Assembly: GCF_022898935.1 (NCBI RefSeq)
Contig: NZ_JALIRP010000002.1
Location: 186,001 to 250,000, forward strand
DNA from: Paenibacillus mangrovi
GTDB taxonomy: Bacteria; Bacillota; Bacilli; Paenibacillales; Paenibacillaceae
Direction: 5' to 3'
Length of the DNA stretch: 64,000 bases
The notes beneath the pieces are model-generated. The model did not search any database. It was not told where the DNA came from and saw nothing but the letters and a program-made list of their open reading frames with translations. A program made the position numbers and the translations under genes. Positions 26,419-36,563 of this stretch are shown piece after piece; position 1 is the stretch's first letter, and each line of letters starts with the position of its first letter.

Positions 26419-26455
26419 AAAAGGCGTATCCTATAAGCTTCATAGAATACGCCTT
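26418..26455. terminator. Bidirectional terminator between convergent genes
   Basis: AAAAAGGCGTAT (26418-26429) pairs with ATACGCCTT (26447-26455). It starts at the last base of the upstream stop codon. Confidence 0.8.
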
Positions 26456-26474: not shown

Positions 26475-27395
26475 TCAATTTCTCATGCTGCTCTGCTCCC
26501 GCTTCGGATCAGCCGAAGCGATCTTTTCCTGCCATGCTTCATAATGATGAACCGCCAGTCCCGCAAAGGAAGAGTGGGATTCGCTGAGCTGGTATACCTT
26601 CTCCATCTCTTCTTCCATCACCGGCAGGGGCTTGCCGAAAAAGCTCACATGTGATCCTTCCTCGGTGTGTCCGAGCTCCATGCCGATCCAGATGGATTTG
26701 TCGAGCTGATCGGCCTCATCCAGCATTCCCTTGGACAAGTCAAATATTTGCTGCCCGCTGTCACGATAGGACATGACGGCCAGGGCATCAAACCGGCCCA
26801 GCATCCAGCGGCTCAGAGTGCCGCTGCCGTCCTCCGCTCCGATTTTCCCGAGCCAGAACGGTACAGCGGCGCTCATGTATAGTCCGCCTCTTTGGCCCCT
26901 GTCCGTCCATTCCTCCATATTGCGGCTCCACTCGCTTACCACGCTGCTCTGGTCACGTTCCCAGCGTTTGAGTTGATATGGCTCCACATCAAGCTGAATA
27001 CCGGCAAAACGTTCTTCCGGCGAAGCTTTATCATTATAATCGAGAACCCAATCGATAAATTGATCCGCTTCCTTCCGGTGCTCCTCGTACGCCCACTGCG
27101 GACGGCCATCCAGGGCATGCACCGAAATATCTTCCTGATGGGCGGCGGCGATAAAACGCTTGTACTGCTGTACATCCACATCTTTTTGGATCTGAAGGAA
27201 AATGACACTGACTCCCTGCTCCTTACAGAAGTCCAGAATCTCTCCTGGGTTTTCAATTAATGAGGCGTCCCAGAGCCAAGTAGCTTTACCTTCTTCTACA
27301 GATGAAGATTTGAAAAGGAAGGGCAAGAGCAGCAAGCAGCAGACGACCAGGACCAGGCGAGGCTTCGCTTTTGCTTTTGCCAGTAATGCTCCCAT
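26475..27395 (-). CDS. Secreted or membrane-anchored TIM-barrel-like protein, paralogue of the 5278 gene
   Basis: This 306-residue protein has an N-terminal hydrophobic segment (LVLVVCCLLLLPFLF) and no clear cleavage site, so it may stay membrane-anchored. The domain from ATWLW on matches the protein at 5278 over its whole length: VHALDGRPQWAYE, GIQLDVEPYQL, MSAAVPFWL, LAVMSYRDS, GLAVHHYEAW. The acidic DVEP site after a barrel strand is conserved in both. It is last in the polysaccharide cluster, 19 bp after the nucleotide-sugar dehydrogenase gene. A role in trimming or modifying the exported glycan is inferred; no characterised family is recognised. Confidence 0.8.
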   Translation of the reverse strand: MGALLAKAKAKPRLVLVVCCLLLLPFLFKSSSVEEGKATWLWDASLIENPGEILDFCKEQGVSVIFLQIQKDVDVQQYKRFIAAAHQEDISVHALDGRPQWAYEEHRKEADQFIDWVLDYNDKASPEERFAGIQLDVEPYQLKRWERDQSSVVSEWSRNMEEWTDRGQRGGLYMSAAVPFWLGKIGAEDGSGTLSRWMLGRFDALAVMSYRDSGQQIFDLSKGMLDEADQLDKSIWIGMELGHTEEGSHVSFFGKPLPVMEEEMEKVYQLSESHSSFAGLAVHHYEAWQEKIASADPKREQSSMRN

Positions 27396-27414
27396 CCTCT
27401 TCCTCCTTTTTCTG

Positions 27415-28782
27415 TTATCCGATCAGAGCCATTTCTAGCTCCTGGAGATGCTGGACGGAATGTCCGATTTTATAAATATGCGGCTCGTTAAAGCTGCGGA
27501 ACGCATTGCGCGTATCCACGATCGGCACACCCAAGGATGCGATTTCACCGTAATCCAGTCCGCTGTGGTTGGTGATCAGAACGATGCAATCATAAGTCTT
27601 GAACTTCGCAAGGTCATACGCCACGCTGTGGACAGTTTCCCCATTCTTGTCACGGAAGCTGACGGCATACGGATCATAGTATTCCACGTTCGCGCCGCTT
27701 TCTTTGTACAGCTCATATACCTCGAGCCCCGGAGATTCCCGCAAATCGCTGATGTCCGGTTTATAGGCCATTCCGAGTACCAGAATGTTCGATTTTTTGA
27801 TTGACTTGGCGTATTCGTTCAGAATGGTAGAGGTTTTGCTGATGACATAATACGGCATATTGTCATTGGTCGATTGTGCTAGCTCGATAAATTTGCTGTA
27901 GAAGCGGAAGCCTTTGGCCTTCCAGGACAGATACATCGGATCAAGCGGGATGCAGTGCCCACCGATGCCCGGACCCGGATAGAACGGCATGAAGCCGAAC
28001 GGCTTCGTCGCAGCCGCATCAATAACCTCCCAAATATCGATTCCCATGCGGTCGCACATCATCGCCATTTCGTTGATAAACGCAATGTTGACGCTGCGGA
28101 AGGTGTTTTCAAGCAGCTTGGACATTTCTGCAACCTTCGGCGTTGAGACTGGCACAACCTTTTCCACATATTTCGAATAAAGGGCGGTGCCGAGAGTCAG
28201 GCAGGCTTCGGTGGTTCCCCCGATAACCTTAGGCGTATTGAATGTATTGAAGCGTGTATTGGACGGATCGACGCGTTCAGGGGAGAAGCAAAGGAAGAAA
28301 TCCTCGCCCACACGATAGCCAAGAGCTTCGAGTTTGTCCTGAATCAGCTCTTCGGTTGTTCCCGGATAGGTGGTGCTTTCCAGCGTAATGAGCAGCCCTT
28401 TTTTCATATGCAGCTTGATCTGATCGACCACACTGGTAATGTAGGACGTATCCGGATCCTGATTTTCGCTGAGCGGAGTCGGAACACAGATACTGAGTGC
28501 ATCAATGACCGAGATCATGCTGTAATCCGTCGTTGGCTTGAAGCGACCGGTTGCGACACATGCCTTCAGATCCTCTGAAGTGATATCGGAAATATACGAT
28601 TCCCCATGATAGATTTGCTCGATCTTGGACGGATCCACATCAATACCGATAACCGTGAAGCCTTGCTTGACCATCTCGACTGCCAGCGGAAGTCCGACAT
28701 AGCCTAAACCGACAACACCGAGTACAGCCTTTTTATCCTCAATTGCATTCAACAGTTGCTCATATTTCTGATTCAAGAGCAC
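27415..28782 (-). CDS. Nucleotide-sugar dehydrogenase (UDP-Glc / UDP-GlcNAc or UDP-ManNAc 6-dehydrogenase family)
   Basis: This 455-residue protein has an N-terminal NAD domain (VLGVVGLGYVGLPLAVEMV), a central helical domain and a C-terminal UDP-binding domain. The catalytic cysteine lies in PGPGIGGHCIPLDP. Family enzymes oxidise C6 of a UDP-hexose to the uronate in two NAD-dependent steps. The style of the sequence (FSPERVDPSN, KPFGFMPFYPGPG) is closer to the WbpA/WecC type acting on N-acetyl sugars, so UDP-GlcNAc is a likely substrate. The start is a GTG after GGAGG; a TTG two codons later is possible. It would supply precursor to the GT2 synthase in the cluster. Confidence 0.92.
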   Translation of the reverse strand: MLLNQKYEQLLNAIEDKKAVLGVVGLGYVGLPLAVEMVKQGFTVIGIDVDPSKIEQIYHGESYISDITSEDLKACVATGRFKPTTDYSMISVIDALSICVPTPLSENQDPDTSYITSVVDQIKLHMKKGLLITLESTTYPGTTEELIQDKLEALGYRVGEDFFLCFSPERVDPSNTRFNTFNTPKVIGGTTEACLTLGTALYSKYVEKVVPVSTPKVAEMSKLLENTFRSVNIAFINEMAMMCDRMGIDIWEVIDAAATKPFGFMPFYPGPGIGGHCIPLDPMYLSWKAKGFRFYSKFIELAQSTNDNMPYYVISKTSTILNEYAKSIKKSNILVLGMAYKPDISDLRESPGLEVYELYKESGANVEYYDPYAVSFRDKNGETVHSVAYDLAKFKTYDCIVLITNHSGLDYGEIASLGVPIVDTRNAFRSFNEPHIYKIGHSVQHLQELEMALIG

Positions 28783-28826
28783 TCAACCTCCGTAGATGTA
28801 ATTTTTTATGTTTAAAGCGTGATCTT

Positions 28827-29639
28827 TTAGTGAAAACACCGGTGTATTCTGGCATCCAGCTCAACCGGAGAAAATGGCTTGGTTACATAGTCGTTAACCC
28901 CGTTTTGGAAGCATTGACTGATCGTGCGTTCCACCCGCTGCTCGGTCAGCACGACGATTTTCGGCGTGTTCTCCACGGGCAGCTGCTTGATCTGGTGAAT
29001 GAATGGCAGTCCATCGATACCGTACAGATTCAGTTCTGTCAGTACGAGATCCGGCTCCCATTTTTCAATCAGCTCCAGAGCCGATGTACCGTCAAGCGCC
29101 TCAAGGGTCTCATAGCCCTGCATTTTCAGGCGGATGGTCAGAAACTCGCGGATGGCGTCATCGTTATCGACGATGAGAATACGTCCCGGCTCCTGTACGG
29201 CTTCTTCCTTAGTGAAAATATGAATATCGGATGATGTGCTGAGCCTTGTGGATTCGGCCATTTGCTTTAGGACTCCAGGGGTCGGATCTACCTGTCCTGG
29301 AAATACAGTCAGCGTAATCCGCGGGTCAACATTCTCCATGGTTTCCTGCAAATGCTGCTTCAGCAGCAGTGCCTGATAATGGGTCGCATCCAGTGTAAAT
29401 CCTGGCATCAGAATCGCAAGTGTCTGTGTGGAACTGTCTTTGAGCACCTCGAATTCCATTCCGGATTCATGCTGCAAAAAGTCACGTACCCGATTCTCCA
29501 ACTGTGGGGGATTACCGCTGCAAAATAAAAACATGATTCCGCAGAGCTCCCGGGTGGTCTCCTTGAAACGTTCTCCGAGATTTTGGTACACATCGGTTCT
29601 CTGTTCACGCTGCAAAGTTGCAGACTCCGGCATTATCAA
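28827..29639 (-). CDS. Two-domain protein with a C-terminal degenerate response-regulator receiver
   Basis: This 270-residue protein has an unrecognised N-terminal domain (about 1-145) with strands such as GIMFLFCSGNP and LAILMPGFT. A receiver domain (about 152-268) follows, with ILIVDNDDAIREFL, a conserved Thr232 and Lys254 in VTKPF. The usual phosphorylated Asp is Glu202 in VLTELNLYGIDG, and the second acid-pocket Asp is Asn159. Asp-to-Glu changes can mimic phosphorylation, so it may be locked active or act as a pure interaction module. There is no DNA-binding domain. It lies between synthase and dehydrogenase genes, pointing to post-translational control of polysaccharide synthesis. Confidence 0.85.
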   Translation of the reverse strand: MIMPESATLQREQRTDVYQNLGERFKETTRELCGIMFLFCSGNPPQLENRVRDFLQHESGMEFEVLKDSSTQTLAILMPGFTLDATHYQALLLKQHLQETMENVDPRITLTVFPGQVDPTPGVLKQMAESTRLSTSSDIHIFTKEEAVQEPGRILIVDNDDAIREFLTIRLKMQGYETLEALDGTSALELIEKWEPDLVLTELNLYGIDGLPFIHQIKQLPVENTPKIVVLTEQRVERTISQCFQNGVNDYVTKPFSPVELDARIHRCFH

Positions 29640-29693
29640 TTCCCACCTTTCAAAGATTTAATTGAACTTTTGATTCTAGCGAATCACGCCGAG

Positions 29694-31097
29694 TTAGGCA
29701 GTCTCGCTTTCTTCCTTCCAGCTTTGTCTTGTCATCGTACCCCAGGAATTGTTTTTCCGGAGGTATTGGATATGGCCCTGTACGCGCCACAAAACGCCTA
29801 GTTGATGGTATCCGACGAATTTGAGGGCCGAGAAGAGGAGCATTTTCCACAAATCGGAAATCTTCTTGTACCTGCGGAACGCAATCTCTTCCAGAATAAT
29901 GGCCGCTACACCCAGCAGATAACCACTCAGGAAGTTCAGAAGGATGAAAGTAAGCAGTATGCGCCAATGCGTCATATCCAAAAGCGTATATCCTATCAGA
30001 GCCAACAGGCCCGTGATTCTAAAATAAGGGTTTAATGTTTCAAACAAGACGTTGTAAGGCATCGTGATGAGGCCCATGATCTTGTATTTCGGGTTGAACA
30101 GCATCCCGCGGTTTTCGATCATGTTCTTCAGATTCCCGCGGCCCCAGCGCTTCCGTTGATTGGCGATGATATTATACGTGTCCGGCGCCTGCGTCCAGCA
30201 GACTGCCTCGGGACAAAATGCTACTTTATACGGAAGCTTGTGGCTGAGCATGTACCGGTGAAGCTTGATGATAATGTTCATGTCTTCTCCGGGATAACCG
30301 CCCCGGTAGCCGCCGACGGCAATCACGTAATCCTTGCGAAACAGCCCGAAGGCCCCGGACACGATGATGAGGCCGTTTATATGGCTCCAGCCGATCCGTC
30401 CACCGAGAAAAGCCTTTAAGTATTCGATGGACTGGAACATCGGCCATATTTTCCGCGGCAGCGAAATCTTTTTTACTGCCCCGTTTTCGATCAGGCAGCC
30501 GTTTGCGATGCGGACATCGCCGCCAATAGCCACCATTTCCTCCGGGTTCTCCATATACATGCGGGCCATCCGGATCAGTGCGTCCTTTTCCAGAAGAGAA
30601 TCCGCATCGATGGAGGAGATCAGCGGGTAATGCGAAAAGTTGATGCCAGCATTCAGCGAATCCGCTTTGCCTCCGTTTTCTTTATCTATAATAAACAGCT
30701 GTGGATAATCGGGATTATGGTATATACCTCTCACGGTTTCCGTGTCGATGGTCCCCCTGATTTCGGGATTCTGTATCTTCTCGAGCTTGAATTCCTTAAT
30801 CAGTACAGGGAGCGTTTTATCGCCTGAGCCATCATTGATGACGATAACTTCGTAAGTCGGATAATTCAGCGTCATCAGGCAGTACACATTTTCGATAATC
30901 GTCAGCTCTTCATTATAGGCTGGGACCAACAAGGATACCGGTGGCACCAGCTCAGAGCCGGAAAGCGTATTATAGCTGGAATACTTGGTTCTTCTGTAAA
31001 TCGTTGAAATGTTACGATACGATAGCGCCATAATCGTAAAATACAGAATGTTGACGATCATGACATAATAAACGGCTACCATGCCGTAGAAAAGCAA
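29694..31097 (-). CDS. Membrane GT2 polysaccharide synthase (processive-type glycosyltransferase)
   Basis: The protein is 467 residues. It has two N-terminal hydrophobic stretches at most, then a cytosolic GT-A domain with VPAYNEE, VINDGSGDKT, the metal-binding DAD (164-166), the acceptor ED (271-272) and the QRKRW motif (314-318). These are the landmarks of cellulose, hyaluronan and PNAG synthases. Three or four C-terminal membrane segments follow. It therefore probably builds and exports a beta-linked polymer. The start (TTG at 31097) is uncertain; a CTG eight codons upstream is better spaced from GGAGGGG. That ribosome site lies inside the end of the HEAT gene. Confidence 0.92.
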   Translation of the reverse strand: MLFYGMVAVYYVMIVNILYFTIMALSYRNISTIYRRTKYSSYNTLSGSELVPPVSLLVPAYNEELTIIENVYCLMTLNYPTYEVIVINDGSGDKTLPVLIKEFKLEKIQNPEIRGTIDTETVRGIYHNPDYPQLFIIDKENGGKADSLNAGINFSHYPLISSIDADSLLEKDALIRMARMYMENPEEMVAIGGDVRIANGCLIENGAVKKISLPRKIWPMFQSIEYLKAFLGGRIGWSHINGLIIVSGAFGLFRKDYVIAVGGYRGGYPGEDMNIIIKLHRYMLSHKLPYKVAFCPEAVCWTQAPDTYNIIANQRKRWGRGNLKNMIENRGMLFNPKYKIMGLITMPYNVLFETLNPYFRITGLLALIGYTLLDMTHWRILLTFILLNFLSGYLLGVAAIILEEIAFRRYKKISDLWKMLLFSALKFVGYHQLGVLWRVQGHIQYLRKNNSWGTMTRQSWKEESETA

Positions 31098-31104
31098 TGT
31101 CTCT

Positions 31105-32304
31105 CTAAGCAGTGTAATCCCCTCCTACCGCGGCTATGCCAGGCATCCGTTTGATCGGCTGCTGCTTCACTCCGAAATACCGGTCGTGAATCAGCCGCTT
31201 CTTGTTGTAGGCCACCATCTGTTCGATTGCGCTGTGCTCCTGCTTCTTTTCCATTACCAGCTCAATACGCTGCAGAGCAGCCTCACGCTGGATTCCCGCT
31301 CCGCTGAGCGCAGCCTGGCACAGTGCTTCAAATCCGGCTTCGCCCAGAGCTGCAAGGCTTTCGGCGCTGCTATGCCGCACTTTCCAGTTGGCATCTTGAA
31401 GGGCCTTGACCAGAAGCGGAATGCTGCCTGCAGCATGCAGCGGACCCAGCGCTTTGGCTGCAGCGGCCCGTACTTCCCAGTTTCGGTCGCTCATCAGCTG
31501 GACGATGGTCTCATCCTTAAGCGTAGGGTTGGAGCTGAGGTACAACTTGACGGCTTCGGCGCGGACATCCTTCTCCTCAGAGCCCACCAGTCTGCCCAGA
31601 ACCGGCATGACTTCGGGAACAGCCTGTCCCCACATCGCCACCAGTCCAACCTTGACGAGGGCCGGGTCCTGATCGTCAAGCAGCTTCATGAGAAGACCGC
31701 TCGTATCGAGGCCCGTTTCCAGCATAATGTCTGCGGCCAAATGATGGATCGGCTTGCCGTGGGACAATAGCGTCCGCAGCATTTCAATCACATCCTCAGG
31801 TCTCTGCGCGCTCTTGGCAATAGACCTCGCGATGATGATTAACAGCGAATTGTATTTGCCTTTTTGAAGCATTTGCAGCAGAGCCGGCACCGCTTCCCCG
31901 GCACGCATGCCCCCTAGGCGGTAAGCCGCGCCCAGCCTGCGGCCATAGCGAAAGCTTTTTAATGCCTTCAGATCTTCTTCCACCAACCCCGCATCCCTGC
32001 AGAGCTGTATCATCTTCGCGCGGTATTCACCCTTGAACTGCTCGATCCATTCCATGTATTTATCCTGGATCACTCTGCGTTCAAGCGGCTTCAGCTTGCC
32101 CGGTGGAAGCCGCAGCGCCTTTTCATCCTCAAGATGAGTCTGGATGTATACGAAGTAATCATGATGCTTTTGCTCATACATTTCTCTAAGCTGCTGTTCC
32201 TTGTTTTGCGATATTTTCATCAGGAACAAAAGAATAATTCCGAGGCCAATCAGTCCGAGGCATATAAAGATAAAAATATATGCGACGATCAAATGCGAGA
32301 ACAT
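31105..32304 (-). CDS. Membrane-anchored HEAT-repeat protein
   Basis: The protein is 399 residues from the ATG at 32304 (MFSHLIVAY), chosen because GGAGGGAGG precedes it. A single N-terminal membrane helix (about 5-28) is followed by a charged linker and about eight HEAT-like helical pairs. The repeats are clearest at NWEVRAAAAKALGPLHAAGSIP and NWKVRHSSAESLAALGEAGFEA. Such solenoids are protein-binding scaffolds. Between the hydrolase and synthase genes, it may hold the synthase complex together at the membrane. Its N-in/N-out topology cannot be settled here. Confidence 0.85.
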   Translation of the reverse strand: MFSHLIVAYIFIFICLGLIGLGIILLFLMKISQNKEQQLREMYEQKHHDYFVYIQTHLEDEKALRLPPGKLKPLERRVIQDKYMEWIEQFKGEYRAKMIQLCRDAGLVEEDLKALKSFRYGRRLGAAYRLGGMRAGEAVPALLQMLQKGKYNSLLIIIARSIAKSAQRPEDVIEMLRTLLSHGKPIHHLAADIMLETGLDTSGLLMKLLDDQDPALVKVGLVAMWGQAVPEVMPVLGRLVGSEEKDVRAEAVKLYLSSNPTLKDETIVQLMSDRNWEVRAAAAKALGPLHAAGSIPLLVKALQDANWKVRHSSAESLAALGEAGFEALCQAALSGAGIQREAALQRIELVMEKKQEHSAIEQMVAYNKKRLIHDRYFGVKQQPIKRMPGIAAVGGDYTA

Positions 32305-32415
32305 GGTTGCAGTTTCCTCCCTCCAGGATTTGGAATCATCCAATTTCTGTCGCTCTTTGGATTTCTGCCTAATCCTTCTTGTAAATTTTTCTCCTATCCT
32401 GTTTGTTTCGTTTAC

Positions 32416-34638
32416 CTATCTCTCATCTGGAAGCTGGTTATACATATCTTTCATCACGTAATAGCTTTGCTTCAGCTGCTCGCTGTACTGAACCGTATCC
32501 CAAGGCTTCCAGCTGTAAGGGACAATATCATTGATATCCATGGTATTTGCCGCCCCTCCTGGCCAGCTCACCTTGGTGCCGCTTTGTTCAACCAGCCAAG
32601 GAATCAACCGGATGCCGTCCGTTTTGACTGAGCTGAATGCGTGGCCTTCCTTCAGCGGGCTGTAATCGATAACCTGCAGAGAGCTCGGATCGGAAAAGCC
32701 CAGAAGCATCCACGGAATGCGCATCTCTATCTCATTACCGCTGTACTGCCAAGAAGTCGAAGAGTCGAACTGGGCCTTGCTGCGGTCCGTTGTCCCCCTT
32801 TTCAATGTTCCTATCGTTTCGTCGATAAATGGATGCGCAAAGCGCGTATCCGGCGGATTCATAAGCAGGCTGATCGCAAGCTTCCAAGGATGGAACGGGG
32901 TATCCTGTTCCTGTGTCGTCTCGGGCAGCATCCAGTATCCTTCCTTGCCGTACAGTCTCGTATGAAAATCATAGTCGGCTGCAATCTCTACCTGGGATTC
33001 CTCGTCCTTTCCGATTTCGATCAAAGCCTCAGGCGCTCCGCCCTCCAGCTTTTTGCCGGGAAGCTGCGCTGCGGATGGCTCGTTCCCGCCCGCAATCGTA
33101 TCGGCACCGATATACAGCTTTGATGTTTTCGGATCAAAATCTTTGTCCAGCCGGATTCCGAGGTACAGATATCCTTCATCATGCGTAATTCTCATATCCT
33201 GAATGCCCGGAACCTTACCCTGCCAGTACTTGACCTCATCCTGCGCCAGACTGTCCCAATCGTTCAGCTTGCCGTCGATCGTGAGCAGTTTTTCCTTGCC
33301 CGGAAGCATGCCGAGCACGCCAAACATTTTCTCGTTGGTCAGCACATTAATCCAGTACGCACGCCGGTCAGCAGGTATTTCAAACGGCATCGTGTTCCAT
33401 GTCTTCTTGAACCATTCATCCTGCCACATAAACAATATGGCTCCGGCATAGCCTTCGTCATAAATATCCCGGGTAAGCGATGCATCGATTTCACCTTGCT
33501 CCTGCTCGTTATGACCGCCCTGATCACGGCCGCCGGGCCCAAAGTGGGATACCCCTATCGAGGAAGGTACTCCATATTCGGTGACCATAATCGGCATGTC
33601 CTTGAACTTCGCTTTCAGTTGGTGCAGATAAGCTTTATAGGTATTGTAATTTCCCTGCTTATCCTTAATCGTCTGCAGCGTGGAATCCGTCCGGAAGAAA
33701 TCGGGATAATACGGGTAGACATGGTATGCGGCAAAATATCCGCCTTTCCAGCCCGTCGGCTGAACATGTCTGGCATCCACGCTTACCATATCTTCTTCAA
33801 ACAGCGGCTCGCCGGGATGACTGAGCACATCGGTGGTCACCCAGTTTGTAAAAGTTACGGGATGCTCCCATCCATACTGCTTCTCTTGCTGGGCCGTGTA
33901 GTCTAGCAGTCCCGCAAGCCAGTTTTCGAAAGGAGAAGCATCCTGGGTACCTGAGAAATATTGACCCTTATACACCGGAACATCGCTGTGCTTCTTATTG
34001 GTGTTCTTGACCATTTCCGGATCCCATTCGGTGCCCACATGCCATGCCATCAAATATTTACCCGCATTCGCCGTGTACTTTCCGCTCGAAGCCCCTTGCT
34101 TCGGCGGCACGGTGACATCACCGTATACAGCGGCTACCGCCTTCTGTATTTCTGCTTTAAATTGCTTGCTGATGTCCTCTGCATAGGCGTCCTTGCGCTC
34201 GATTAGTTCTTCCTCGGGGGACCATATGCCCTGCATAAAATACAAAGGATCGTCGCCTTTATCCTTGTTGTATTTCACAAGCGCTGAATAAAATACCGGC
34301 TGATGCACCGTGTACACACGGATAACGTTAGCCCCCATTTCATCGATCTGCTTGAACCAGCGCAGGTAATCCTCTTCGGTCGCCGGAAGCTCACCCGGAA
34401 AATAGCCGGGTACTGTCGCCCCCAAATTGACGCCTTTCACAAACATCTCCTTCCAGTTTCCGTCTTTGTCATATCGCATAAAACGGTCACCTTGGGTCTT
34501 AAATGTAAACTGGGTCCCATCTTGATCCTTGTATACCTTTACCGGAGAAGAGTTCACCGTTAAGCCGGCAGTGATTCCTCCGGCAATAAGAACGGCGGCT
34601 GCTGTGATCCAGATGAATAGTGTTCTACGATTGATCAT
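32416..34638 (-). CDS. Membrane-anchored glycoside hydrolase-like (GH-A clan) protein with C-terminal sugar-binding-like domain
   Basis: The protein is 740 residues. A signal anchor (about 7-27) precedes a TIM barrel of the GH2/GH5 style (about 40-440): FVKGVNLGATVPGYFPGE, ANVIRVYTVHQP, a proton-donor-like Glu in AWHVGTEWDPE and a nucleophile-like Glu in IMVTEYGVPSS. From about 460 a beta-rich module begins LTIDGKLNDWDSLAQDE and continues YLYLGIRLDKDF, resembling CBM9/DOMON domains. The start at 34638 (MINRRT) is chosen because GAGGTGAG precedes it. As first gene of the cluster it likely processes the exported polymer. The polymer is unknown. Confidence 0.85.
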   Translation of the reverse strand: MINRRTLFIWITAAAVLIAGGITAGLTVNSSPVKVYKDQDGTQFTFKTQGDRFMRYDKDGNWKEMFVKGVNLGATVPGYFPGELPATEEDYLRWFKQIDEMGANVIRVYTVHQPVFYSALVKYNKDKGDDPLYFMQGIWSPEEELIERKDAYAEDISKQFKAEIQKAVAAVYGDVTVPPKQGASSGKYTANAGKYLMAWHVGTEWDPEMVKNTNKKHSDVPVYKGQYFSGTQDASPFENWLAGLLDYTAQQEKQYGWEHPVTFTNWVTTDVLSHPGEPLFEEDMVSVDARHVQPTGWKGGYFAAYHVYPYYPDFFRTDSTLQTIKDKQGNYNTYKAYLHQLKAKFKDMPIMVTEYGVPSSIGVSHFGPGGRDQGGHNEQEQGEIDASLTRDIYDEGYAGAILFMWQDEWFKKTWNTMPFEIPADRRAYWINVLTNEKMFGVLGMLPGKEKLLTIDGKLNDWDSLAQDEVKYWQGKVPGIQDMRITHDEGYLYLGIRLDKDFDPKTSKLYIGADTIAGGNEPSAAQLPGKKLEGGAPEALIEIGKDEESQVEIAADYDFHTRLYGKEGYWMLPETTQEQDTPFHPWKLAISLLMNPPDTRFAHPFIDETIGTLKRGTTDRSKAQFDSSTSWQYSGNEIEMRIPWMLLGFSDPSSLQVIDYSPLKEGHAFSSVKTDGIRLIPWLVEQSGTKVSWPGGAANTMDINDIVPYSWKPWDTVQYSEQLKQSYYVMKDMYNQLPDER

Positions 34639-34803
34639 CGCCTGAAAGTTCTCACCTCTGGTTTGGCATGGGCCTTTTCCTTGGCCCGGCACTCTCGATT
34701 TTTGTCATAACTCAATTCTCAACTAAGATTACCAATCTGTAAACTAGGCTGCTGGAAGGAATTTTCAGAACCTGGCGACCTATCCCACCGCTGCCCGTAA
34801 CTA

Positions 34804-34890
34804 AAAAACGACAGTTGCCTTTTCTTCGGCACTGACGTCTGTAGGGACAACTAAACAGCGTGTTTCTTTCCTTGGCCGAAGCGGCAACTG
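34804..34890 (-). repeat. Imperfect inverted repeat with terminator-like end in the leader of the polysaccharide cluster
   Basis: CAGTTGCC (34812-34819) pairs with GGCAACTG (34883-34890), and TTCGGC (34825-34830) pairs with GCCGAA (34875-34880). On the minus strand the 3' arm is followed by TCG and six T's. It could be an attenuator about 165 nt before the hydrolase gene, or a MITE-like insertion. The surrounding 680-bp gap (34639-35318) holds no gene. Apart from this element and the uvrX promoter only AT-rich sequence is seen. Confidence 0.5.
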
Positions 34891-35234
34891 ATATGTATAC
34901 GTCGAAAAATTTCTAAAGTTGTGGTCGTTTTAACATCTTTATCCATAAAGATTACAAAATTGATACTATAGTCCGATGAAGAAACAGCAAAAAACCGCAC
35001 CACTACAGCATTTTCGGAAAACAGCATTTTTTTAAAAATAAGGACAGAGTCACGAACAGGACTTACGGTCCCAACCCGTTATCAAAATGGATATATATGG
35101 ATATAAATAGTATGACTATCCGGTTACTTTTGAGATGCTCACCAGGCGATATTCCCCATCTTTGTAACTAGGCATAATGGAGAAGGTTTACAAAAATCAA
35201 ATCTCCGGCACCCGCTCCTTGCAAATAATTCCGG

Positions 35235-35285
35235 TTGAAAATAGAATATTTCTCCGTTATTCTAATAAAATAAGAACACGTGTTC
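35235..35285 (+). promoter_or_regulatory. uvrX promoter with perfect LexA box
   Basis: TTGAAA (35235-35240) and TATTCT (35258-35263) are separated by 17 bp. A LexA operator GAACACGTGTTC lies at 35274-35285, just past the inferred start site, so LexA would block clearance. Confidence 0.88.
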
Positions 35286-35318
35286 CTGCTACTGTTCAAA
35301 TGATAAGGAGCGAGTCCC

Positions 35319-36563
35319 ATGGTCAAGAGCAAAAACCGTGTCATTATGCTGGCCGACTGCCAGTCCTTTTATGCCAGTGTCGAGAAAGTCGCCCATCCCG
35401 AATATGAGGGCAAGCCTTTAGTCGTATCCGGAGATCCGGCTCGGCGCTCAGGAATTATCCTCGCCGCCTGCCCGCTGGCCAAAAAGTACGGGGTCACGAC
35501 GGCCGAGCGCCTCGGTGAGGCGCTCCGCAAATGTCCGCATCTGATCGTCGTTCGCCCGCGGATGGCGGAATATATCCGCGTATCGCTGCATATTACGGAA
35601 ATTCTGCAGTCCTTTACCGACCTCGTGGAGCCCTACAGCATTGACGAGCAGCATCTGGATGTCACCGGAAGCCTCGCCTTGTTCGGAAGTCCCGATGAAA
35701 TCGCCCGCCGGATTCAGCACCGGGTCATGTATGAGACCGGCGTCTACGTACGGGTCGGCATCAGCGATTGCAAGGTGCTTAGCAAGATGGCCTGCGATAT
35801 CTATGCCAAGAAAAACAAGGATGGCATCTATACGCTGAAACGCGAGGAACTGGCGGACACCTTGTGGACCAAGCCGGTTCATGAAATGTTTATGGTCGGC
35901 TCGCGAATGACCCGGCATTTCTATAAGATGGGCATCCACAGCATCGGCGATTTGGCGAAGACGCCCCTGCCCCGCCTGACGGAGCGCTGGGGTGTTAACG
36001 GCGAAGTGCTGTGGCGCATCGCCCGCGGGATGGACTCATCCCCGGTTACGCCCCACAGCCAACTGCAGCAGCAGAAGGGCGTAGGCCATCAAATGACGCT
36101 TCCGCGCGACTATACGGACTGGAAAGAGCTCCGGGTCGTGCTGCTGGAGTTGTGCGAGCTGGTTGGCAGGCGCTGCCGGGAAAAGGGGCTGATGGGATTC
36201 GTTGTCAGCGTGGGCTGTCAGGGCGCAGATTTTGACCATCCGACAGGTTTTTCCAGGCAGATGAAGCTTTCCGATCCCACCAACATTACCGATGAAATTT
36301 ACGGTGCAGCTTGTCTTCTGTTCCGTAGGCACTGGAACGGTCTGCCGGTCCGCAAAATCGGCGTATCCTTATCCGACCTCAGCCCGGATTCCCTGGTCCA
36401 GCTGACCCTGTTCGGAAACCGCGACCGCAAACGGGATCTGGAACGGGCCACGGACGGCATCAAGCGCAAATTTGGCGAGACCGCCATTCTCCGCGCCTCC
36501 TCGCTCCAGGATTCCGGTCAGGCGCAGGAACGCTCTCTACGGATTGGAGGCCACTATAAATGA
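35319..36563 (+). CDS. uvrX: Y-family DNA polymerase (UvrX/YqjW, UmuC-like)
   Basis: This 414-residue polymerase has the catalytic acids in VIMLADCQSFYAS (Asp13) and in YSIDEQHLDV (Asp109, Glu110), a thumb with HhH-like motifs and a little-finger domain (about 230-360). It copies past damaged template bases. Compared with Pol IV the motif around the third acid reads SIDEQHLDV, typical of the UvrX group. AAGGAG lies nine bases before the ATG. It overlaps the YolD gene by 4 nt (ATGA) and is preceded by a LexA box. Confidence 0.93.
   Translation: MVKSKNRVIMLADCQSFYASVEKVAHPEYEGKPLVVSGDPARRSGIILAACPLAKKYGVTTAERLGEALRKCPHLIVVRPRMAEYIRVSLHITEILQSFTDLVEPYSIDEQHLDVTGSLALFGSPDEIARRIQHRVMYETGVYVRVGISDCKVLSKMACDIYAKKNKDGIYTLKREELADTLWTKPVHEMFMVGSRMTRHFYKMGIHSIGDLAKTPLPRLTERWGVNGEVLWRIARGMDSSPVTPHSQLQQQKGVGHQMTLPRDYTDWKELRVVLLELCELVGRRCREKGLMGFVVSVGCQGADFDHPTGFSRQMKLSDPTNITDEIYGAACLLFRRHWNGLPVRKIGVSLSDLSPDSLVQLTLFGNRDRKRDLERATDGIKRKFGETAILRASSLQDSGQAQERSLRIGGHYK

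Follow-up and report, generated by a model that had tools for sequence, protein, structure and literature searches.

The subject of this account is a group of six genes on the minus strand of a 64,000-nucleotide stretch of DNA from Paenibacillus mangrovi (contig NZ_JALIRP010000002.1, positions 186,001 to 250,000 of the forward strand), which is referred to throughout as the window and to which all coordinates apply. The genes run from 34638 to 26475 in the transcription order GH-HEAT-GT2-REC-UDH-TIM, and it is on balance probable that they form an operon encoding a synthase-dependent exopolysaccharide machine of a type that may be named after three of its members, REC-HEAT-GT2. A first-pass annotation made from the sequence alone had placed six open reading frames (ORFs) on one strand here, all of which are indeed present, and its identifications of a family-2 glycosyltransferase (GT2) synthase, a dehydrogenase, a receiver and a HEAT protein agree with Pfam, which confirms UDH, GT2, the receiver half of REC and the HEAT repeats. 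The features are as follows (lengths in amino acids, aa).

32416..34638, minus strand: GH, predicted membrane-anchored, exported clan GH-A glycoside hydrolase, 740 aa (invariant Glu pair, structural model, N-terminal hydrophobic segment)
31105..32304, minus strand: HEAT, single-span membrane protein, its HEAT repeats probably cytosolic, 399 aa (Pfam, hydropathy, orthologues)
29694..31112, minus strand: GT2, processive family-2 polysaccharide synthase with a likely CTG start (invariant motifs, orthologue starts)
31105..31126, minus strand: HEAT-GT2 junction, comprising AGGAGG at 31126-31121, CTG at 31112 and the HEAT stop codon at 31107-31105 (window and 23 orthologues)
28827..29633, minus strand: REC, N-terminal domain and C-terminal pseudo-receiver, 268 aa (Pfam, AF2 model, residue counts, PhoB register)
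27415..28782, minus strand: UDH, nucleotide-sugar 6-dehydrogenase, 455 aa (TIGR03026 and solved relatives)
26475..27395, minus strand: TIM, predicted exported TIM-barrel-like putative glycosidase, 306 aa (profile match to 10yv_A, N-terminal hydrophobic segment)
26421..26455, minus strand: intrinsic-terminator-like hairpin with a 16-pair stem and T-run, just past the TIM stop codon (hairpin scan)

Start codons were chosen from orthologue alignments, which best support 34638 for GH, the ATG at 32304 for HEAT (over a TTG at 32343), the ATG at 29633 for REC and 27395 for TIM; UDH begins at 28782 (GTG) or 28776 (TTG), and GT2 probably at the CTG at 31112 in preference to the TTG at 31097. The intergenic gaps are then 111 nucleotides (nt) between GH and HEAT, 60 between GT2 and REC, 44 or 50 between REC and UDH, and 19 between UDH and TIM. 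The range of 7-111 bp given in the first-pass annotation is right at its upper end, but its lower figure holds only if GT2 starts at the TTG, since with the CTG start HEAT and GT2 overlap by 8 nt.

The central enzyme is recognisable from its motifs. The DxD, (T/G)ED and QxxRW signatures of processive GT2 synthases are all present in GT2, the DGS, DAD, GED and QRxRW motifs being invariant among its relatives (D89, D164/D166, E271/D272, Q314 and R317/W318, in 19 of 19 aligned rows), and the host genome contains a single GT2 of this family. That a GT2 synthase is encoded together with a sugar-acid dehydrogenase and exported hydrolases, as first proposed, is supported by what follows.

If the six genes function together they would be expected to travel together, and the first-pass annotation had itself named neighbourhood conservation as the check to be made; the genes are in fact kept together. 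The HEAT protein, sought in 148 genomes of the Paenibacillaceae, was found in 44 of them, representing 9 of 19 genera (45 matches), and in 25 of the 30 matches taken with wide flanks, several of which are near-duplicates or close relatives, best-hit ORFs give the order GH-HEAT-GT2-REC-UDH-TIM on one strand, in some cases with an additional gene or a further copy of TIM between UDH and TIM. Of the remaining loci (here and below identified by L numbers), L051 carries its TIM gene elsewhere; in L055 there is no upstream GH and, in the stretch read, no TIM, and a GH relative lies downstream; and L056-L058 diverge, with the form GH-GH-HEAT-GT2 and neither REC nor UDH, a TIM gene lying upstream in two of these three. 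Within the window's own genus the operon is patchy, as just 2 of 15 listed genomes have a HEAT match. In two other genera (g7 and g18) the operon has the same 414-aa neighbour as in the window, adjoining it or one or two genes off, and this shared neighbour suggests that the operon has long been resident at this place.

A much wider distribution emerges if the synthase alone is followed. Named genomes were scanned with a GT2 alignment and the best 80 of at least 343 relatives were kept, selected by GT2 alone; all counts out of 80 refer to these loci. By record title they include Bacillota (among them Paenibacillus, Brevibacillus and Clostridium), Bacteroidota (for example Flavobacterium and Chryseobacterium), Proteobacteria (for example Lysobacter and Acidithiobacillus), Geobacter, Geothrix, Bdellovibrio, haloarchaea such as Halorubrum, and metagenome-assembled genomes (MAGs) assigned to Gemmatimonadetes, Elusimicrobia, Spirochaetales and other groups. 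GT2 has a HEAT gene directly beside it in 69 of the 80, a receiver near it in 66 and both in 60, where "near" denotes a REC-profile match (E 1e-3), hybrid kinases included, among the four nearest same-strand upstream genes or directly downstream. The accessory set that the first-pass annotation called unusual is therefore unusual only by comparison with textbook systems, REC-HEAT-GT2 being a widespread unit.

HEAT had been detected with a profile of our own, some matches scoring as low as 16 bits, and an independent check with Pfam finds HEAT_2 in 67 of 76 genes adjoining GT2 or fused N-termini; these 76 exclude L194, L195 and L212 (contig starts) and L175 (where the gene just upstream is on the other strand), and four of them are the upstream parts of fused ORFs. 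HEAT_2 is also present in the adjacent genes of L192, L210 and L220, two of them haloarchaeal, which our profile had missed; the adjacent gene in haloarchaeal L206 likewise has a HEAT_2 match, and that in L208 has no Pfam match. In the fused ORFs (L161, L199, L209 and L218, 949-980 aa) the upstream region and GT2 form one protein, with HEAT_2 E values of 5e-6 or better in three and 0.0023 in L209, and with the gathering score exceeded in L199 and L218. In L190, L191, L193 and L198 (Chryseobacterium, Sphingobacterium, Kaistella) GT2 lies within a protein of about 1140 aa with a C-terminal extension.

For comparison, 24 matches to the PgaC model, one of them over its cut-off, were taken from 119 genomes of the window's phylum, and for each the longest ORF lying within about 1.5 kb to either side was taken as its neighbour. 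Three of these score above 500 bits against the GT2 profile (one is the window's own) and all three have HEAT upstream; among the other 21 (58-110 bits) our HEAT hidden Markov model finds HEAT beside none, and the 25 Pfam families listed, out of 52, for 42 control neighbours include no HEAT family. Taken together, the recurrent order in Paenibacillaceae, the recurrence of REC-HEAT-GT2 across phyla and the absence of HEAT from these controls indicate that the arrangement is more than chance.

Relatives of the other genes are found more sparsely among the 80 loci: GH relatives in 14, including those of Halorubrum, Geothrix, Thermodesulfovibrio and MAGs of Gemmatimonadetes and Sphaerochaeta, and TIM relatives in 13. 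L206 (Halorubrum lipolyticum) has REC-HEAT-GT2 with a GH relative nearby in a haloarchaeon, and in L105 GH-REC-HEAT-GT2 stands near engB-like, lon-like and hemA-like genes, GH being present in ten listed genomes of the same genus. In diderm relatives a TPR-YaiO outer-membrane barrel occurs near the core, in 12 of 92 chosen upstream ORFs (the first upstream gene in 74 cases and the second in 18, most of these 18 having been flagged as REC beforehand); Response_reg is found in 57 of the 92, which, as the ORFs were chosen by hand, is not a rate. TIGR04390 is above its cut-off in L160, YaiO lies downstream in L211, and a sulfatase-fold protein is encoded in L211 and L164. In these diderm members the TPR/beta-barrel protein would serve as exporter, a component not expected in the monoderm window.

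The first-pass annotation had described a receiver-like protein, and the domain itself is confirmed (Pfam Response_reg, 7e-24; AF2, i.e. AlphaFold2, model with a predicted local distance difference test score, pLDDT, of 80.6), but its phosphorylation residues are changed and it is better called a pseudo-receiver: in place of the phospho-acceptor Asp and acidic Mg pocket of a phosphorylatable response regulator it carries E202 and N159 (numbering of the 270-aa TTG form). Receiver query residues 5-118 align to PhoB 4-117, placing N159 at PhoB D10 and E202 at D53, a register taken as ungapped because the spans are equal, the alignment itself not having been printed. The same two positions are altered in the PhoB D10A/D53E structure 2jb9, which is titled constitutively active, although the window receiver has Asn rather than Ala at the first and, unlike PhoB, REC has no DNA-binding domain.

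Of 46 window-type receivers, 39 have Glu and 7 have Asp at the phospho-acceptor position, and only 3 have Asp as the second acidic pocket (Mg-site) residue, whereas 91 other GT2-neighbouring receiver domains have Asp at the phospho-site in 73 and at the Mg-site in 72; the set includes near-duplicates (e.g. L038 and L144), and the second class counts both receivers of two-receiver proteins. It might be argued that REC is a working two-component output, phosphorylated in some other way or regulated through its N-terminal domain, rather than locked: the phospho-site is still Asp in those 7 window-type receivers, and the Thr/Ser and Lys positions are kept in 46 and 44 of the 46. However, the Mg-binding Asp is lost in 43 of the 46 and in 45 of 48 domains with a Glu phospho-site, being kept in 67 of 80 with Asp, so that a working output appears somewhat unlikely. 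On a GT2 tree (140 rows, LG+G4, short search, long branches present) the Glu and canonical receivers require at least 6 state changes, so that the change has probably arisen on more than one occasion.

For the N-terminal half of REC the predicted fold is beta-alpha-beta-beta-alpha-beta (residues 31-140, block pLDDT 76-89), a succession of strands and helices compatible with GGDEF. Relatives at the REC slot in L101 and L118 carry GGDEF domains, and we suspect that the REC N-terminus is a ruined GGDEF domain without the motif; Pfam finds no GGDEF match in it, and the Foldseek and VIA rows listed for the REC model are receiver-containing chains aligned to the receiver half only, which excludes nothing about a GGDEF-like N-terminus. 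The host genome has seven GGDEF-domain matches, none within the cluster.

Concerning the hydrolases, GH has no Pfam match, nor any match at 0.1 among sequences of solved structures, and its assignment comes from its model (AF2, pLDDT 82). The closest fold is GH157 (VIA Z 31.7, 313 aligned, root-mean-square deviation 2.5), followed by GH2 beta-glucuronidases and a beta-galacturonidase (Z about 27-29), and two glutamates, E204 (putative acid/base) and E354 (putative nucleophile), are unchanged in all 18 aligned sequences. A TIM barrel with two catalytic Glu is what is expected of clan GH-A, and the membrane-anchored GH-A-like hydrolase of the first-pass annotation is borne out by this fold and by the N-terminal segment. 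The CBM9/DOMON-like module attributed to it is not: residues 453-511 give a sub-threshold match to Firmicu-CTERM (22.5 of 50 bits), and the model has a beta-rich C-terminal region. For TIM, Pfam gives only a sub-threshold Erythro_esteras match (17.2 of 26.4 bits), and the sole solved relative found is 10yv_A (profile match, E 2.6e-33); the entry is labelled putative GH97, a label that could not be checked. D136, E138, Y210 and W288 of TIM are conserved, being invariant in 10 aligned rows. Paralogues of both proteins occur. A second GH paralogue of 1016-1062 aa follows the first in L056 (5429-8530), L057 (5595-8783) and L150 (5809-8859); in L056 and L057, the two that were aligned, it lacks the putative acid/base Glu and on that ground may be a pseudo-hydrolase. 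L046-L049 have an extra TIM paralogue in opposite orientation between UDH and TIM.

The positive-inside rule forms the basis for topology calls on HEAT, GH and TIM. Both hydrolases have N-terminal anchors with basic residues before them, and should lie outside the cell. Membrane-anchored hydrolases in a monoderm host, together with a sugar-acid dehydrogenase beside a polymerising glycosyltransferase, would also suit a wall-bound, teichuronic-acid-like glycopolymer that GH and TIM remodel or release from the wall. No ligase, flippase, polymerase or lipid-linked glycosyltransferase is found by Pfam among the six proteins, however, and a single processive GT2, with YaiO barrels near its diderm relatives, fits direct secretion better; we consider a wall polymer unlikely.

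The nature of the sugar can be approached through UDH, which passes the subfamily cut-off of TIGR03026 (2.5e-126). Among more specific NCBIfam models the ManNAc-dehydrogenase equivalogs score best, yet below cut-off, and the best solved relatives are Cap5O (229 bits), which we take to be a UDP-ManNAc dehydrogenase, and a UDP-ManNAcA dehydrogenase (215.5 bits), with an NDP-GalNAcA dehydrogenase likewise ahead of the UDP-glucose enzymes, the best of which reaches 139.5 bits. The uronate foreseen in the first-pass annotation is upheld to the extent that a sugar-acid dehydrogenase is present; these relatives favour an N-acetylhexosaminuronate over glucuronate as the likely sugar acid. GlmS, GlmM and GlmU are the enzymes of the established pathway to UDP-GlcNAc, and a scan of five loci of window-type relatives places their genes nearby, all over curated cut-offs: GlmS in L145, L055 and L107, GlmU in L145 with a shorter GlmU-like protein in L055, and GlmM in L052 and L054. 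With a dehydrogenase of the N-acetylhexosamine type, these neighbours make an amino-sugar or amino-uronate polymer the likeliest product. The same glmU and glmS genes would also supply GlcNAc for a hyaluronan- or heparosan-like GlcA-GlcNAc polymer, assembled by a single GT2 working with a UDP-glucose dehydrogenase, and GT2 has a weak profile match to chondroitin synthase (58 bits); but both the bit scores and the NCBIfam ranking put UDH nearer to the UDP-HexNAc than to the UDP-glucose dehydrogenases, which makes such a polymer distinctly improbable.

None of the known systems compared here matches this gene set, which the first-pass annotation had likewise found unlike Bacillus ydaJKLMN, eps and ica. 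The best curated family for the window GT2 is PgaC/IcaA (TIGR03937), processive GT2 enzymes that use UDP-GlcNAc, but the score is 126.5 bits against a cut-off of 422.3, and Pfam finds neither a polysaccharide deacetylase nor a GHL13 domain among the six proteins. Second best is the XrtG-associated glycosyltransferase system (TIGR03111; 109.3 bits, cut-off 363.95); the weak Firmicu-CTERM match in GH noted above belongs to an XrtG-associated family (TIGR04145), and no XrtG model is among the matches of the six proteins. For bacterial cellulose synthase (TIGR03030) the score is 38.7 of 699.1 bits. Bacillus ydaJKLMN and cellulose bcs are also GT2 synthase operons, the former having a degenerate GGDEF protein, YdaK, but by Pfam the window's six proteins include no BcsB, PilZ or GH8. 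The nearest characterised synthase with its own signalling partner that was found is NfrB of E. coli, where NfrBA-YbcH is a locally c-di-GMP-controlled exopolysaccharide synthase; like the proposed machine it combines a secreted polymer with a glycosyltransferase that has its own local signalling partner, and ManNAc is among the keywords of the paper, but control there involves an MshEN c-di-GMP domain and DgcJ, and the abstract names no HEAT protein or receiver (PMC8669469). In the open-licence literature searched no description of the REC-HEAT-GT2 gene set was found, PMC12419801, PMC3826837 and PMC3130047 being, in the portions available, unrelated to it.

HEAT itself (Pfam HEAT_2, 7e-20) has one strong N-terminal hydrophobic segment, residues 23-41 of the TTG form, most aligned orthologues beginning at or near the Met of the ATG at 32304. 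By hydropathy and charge there is a basic residue after the span and no strong basic patch before it, so the protein is probably N-out and C-in, with cytosolic repeats, and on that topology the synthase or the receiver, within the cell, should be what it acts on. The first-pass idea of HEAT as an outside scaffold holding the polymer, compatible as it is with the membrane anchor, is very improbable indeed, as the single span predicts repeats on the inside, and a cytosolic complex is indicated both by the HEAT-GT2 fusions and by the neighbouring receivers. The gene junction also suggests proximity of HEAT and GT2. Among 23 orthologues read, 15 have CTG at the GT2 start position and L037 has GTG, five (L046, L048, L049, L051 and L055) have ATG one codon later, and L050 and L052 have longer GT2 N-termini; a GGAGG-type site lies just upstream in most CTG loci, the window's AGGAGG standing 8 nt before the CTG, within the last HEAT codons. 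A ribosome site in this position, together with the shared CTG, argues for coupled translation of HEAT and GT2.

How the polymer chemistry, export, contact among HEAT, GT2 and REC, constitutive activation and trimming might be combined can be set out as follows. Judging from its family, UDH would oxidise a UDP-N-acetylhexosamine to the uronate, and GT2 would polymerise the amino sugar and/or amino-uronate at the cytosolic face, extruding the chain via its membrane part. HEAT, held by its one-span anchor with the repeats in the cytosol, would dock on GT2 and link it to REC, the proximity of HEAT and GT2 being supported by the fused genes and the coupled junction. Most relatives have a phosphorylatable receiver in this slot, which would bind HEAT/GT2 and so switch synthesis on. 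In the window's clade, where the receiver is without the phosphorylation residues and is changed at the positions that lock PhoB, it would act as a constitutive activator or serve as a structural subunit, control having moved to transcription or to the REC N-terminal domain. Finally GH and TIM, anchored outside, would cut or release the chain.

Several observations weigh against an operon of this kind. The link of every member to a polymer is one that we infer, and the window cluster itself contains no glm gene. In the hydropathy profile of GT2, clear spans are confined to residues 7-25 and 384-407. In 14 of the 80 loci, several at contig ends, no receiver is near GT2, and in 11 no adjacent HEAT is detected by profile; these 11 comprise 4 fusions, 2 contig ends, L175 with HEAT further off, 3 that Pfam rescues, and L208. 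The control neighbours include one Response_reg and three GGDEF proteins, and a receiver near GT2 is accordingly less specific than HEAT. HEAT is shortened to about 250 aa, without C-terminal repeats, in L042-L045 (genus g18); separately, L042 and L043 retain the GT2 junction. Finally, comparison of the REC N-terminus with GGDEF gives no significant match (hhalign P 0.093, probability 0.6%).

As to signals around the operon, the region has 14 terminator-like sites where 8.5 are expected, so only length and place set the hairpin at 26421-26455 apart. The promoter scan is uninformative, as 9 sigma-70-like promoters were found against 10.4 expected. With regard to RNA-based control, there is no Rfam match at E values up to 1 in 34500-35400, and at gathering scores the whole window gives none.

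Among synthase-dependent systems, those best known are tuned by c-di-GMP. It is quite possible, at somewhat less than even odds, that the genes described here belong to an undescribed synthase family of bacteria and haloarchaea in which a two-component receiver switches polymerisation directly through a HEAT adaptor, with neither transcription nor c-di-GMP as the route; several lineages, that of the window among them, would then have become locked on independently, by changes at the two positions altered in the PhoB mutant. The glm genes of the relatives and the dehydrogenase would narrow the polymer to amino-sugar chemistry. A receiver and repeat adaptor placed beside a synthase across phyla would connect a sensor kinase directly to extracellular polymer and would lend itself to study in one operon, and with phosphorylatable, stand-alone and apparently locked versions in one genetic slot the family would offer a natural experiment on receivers.

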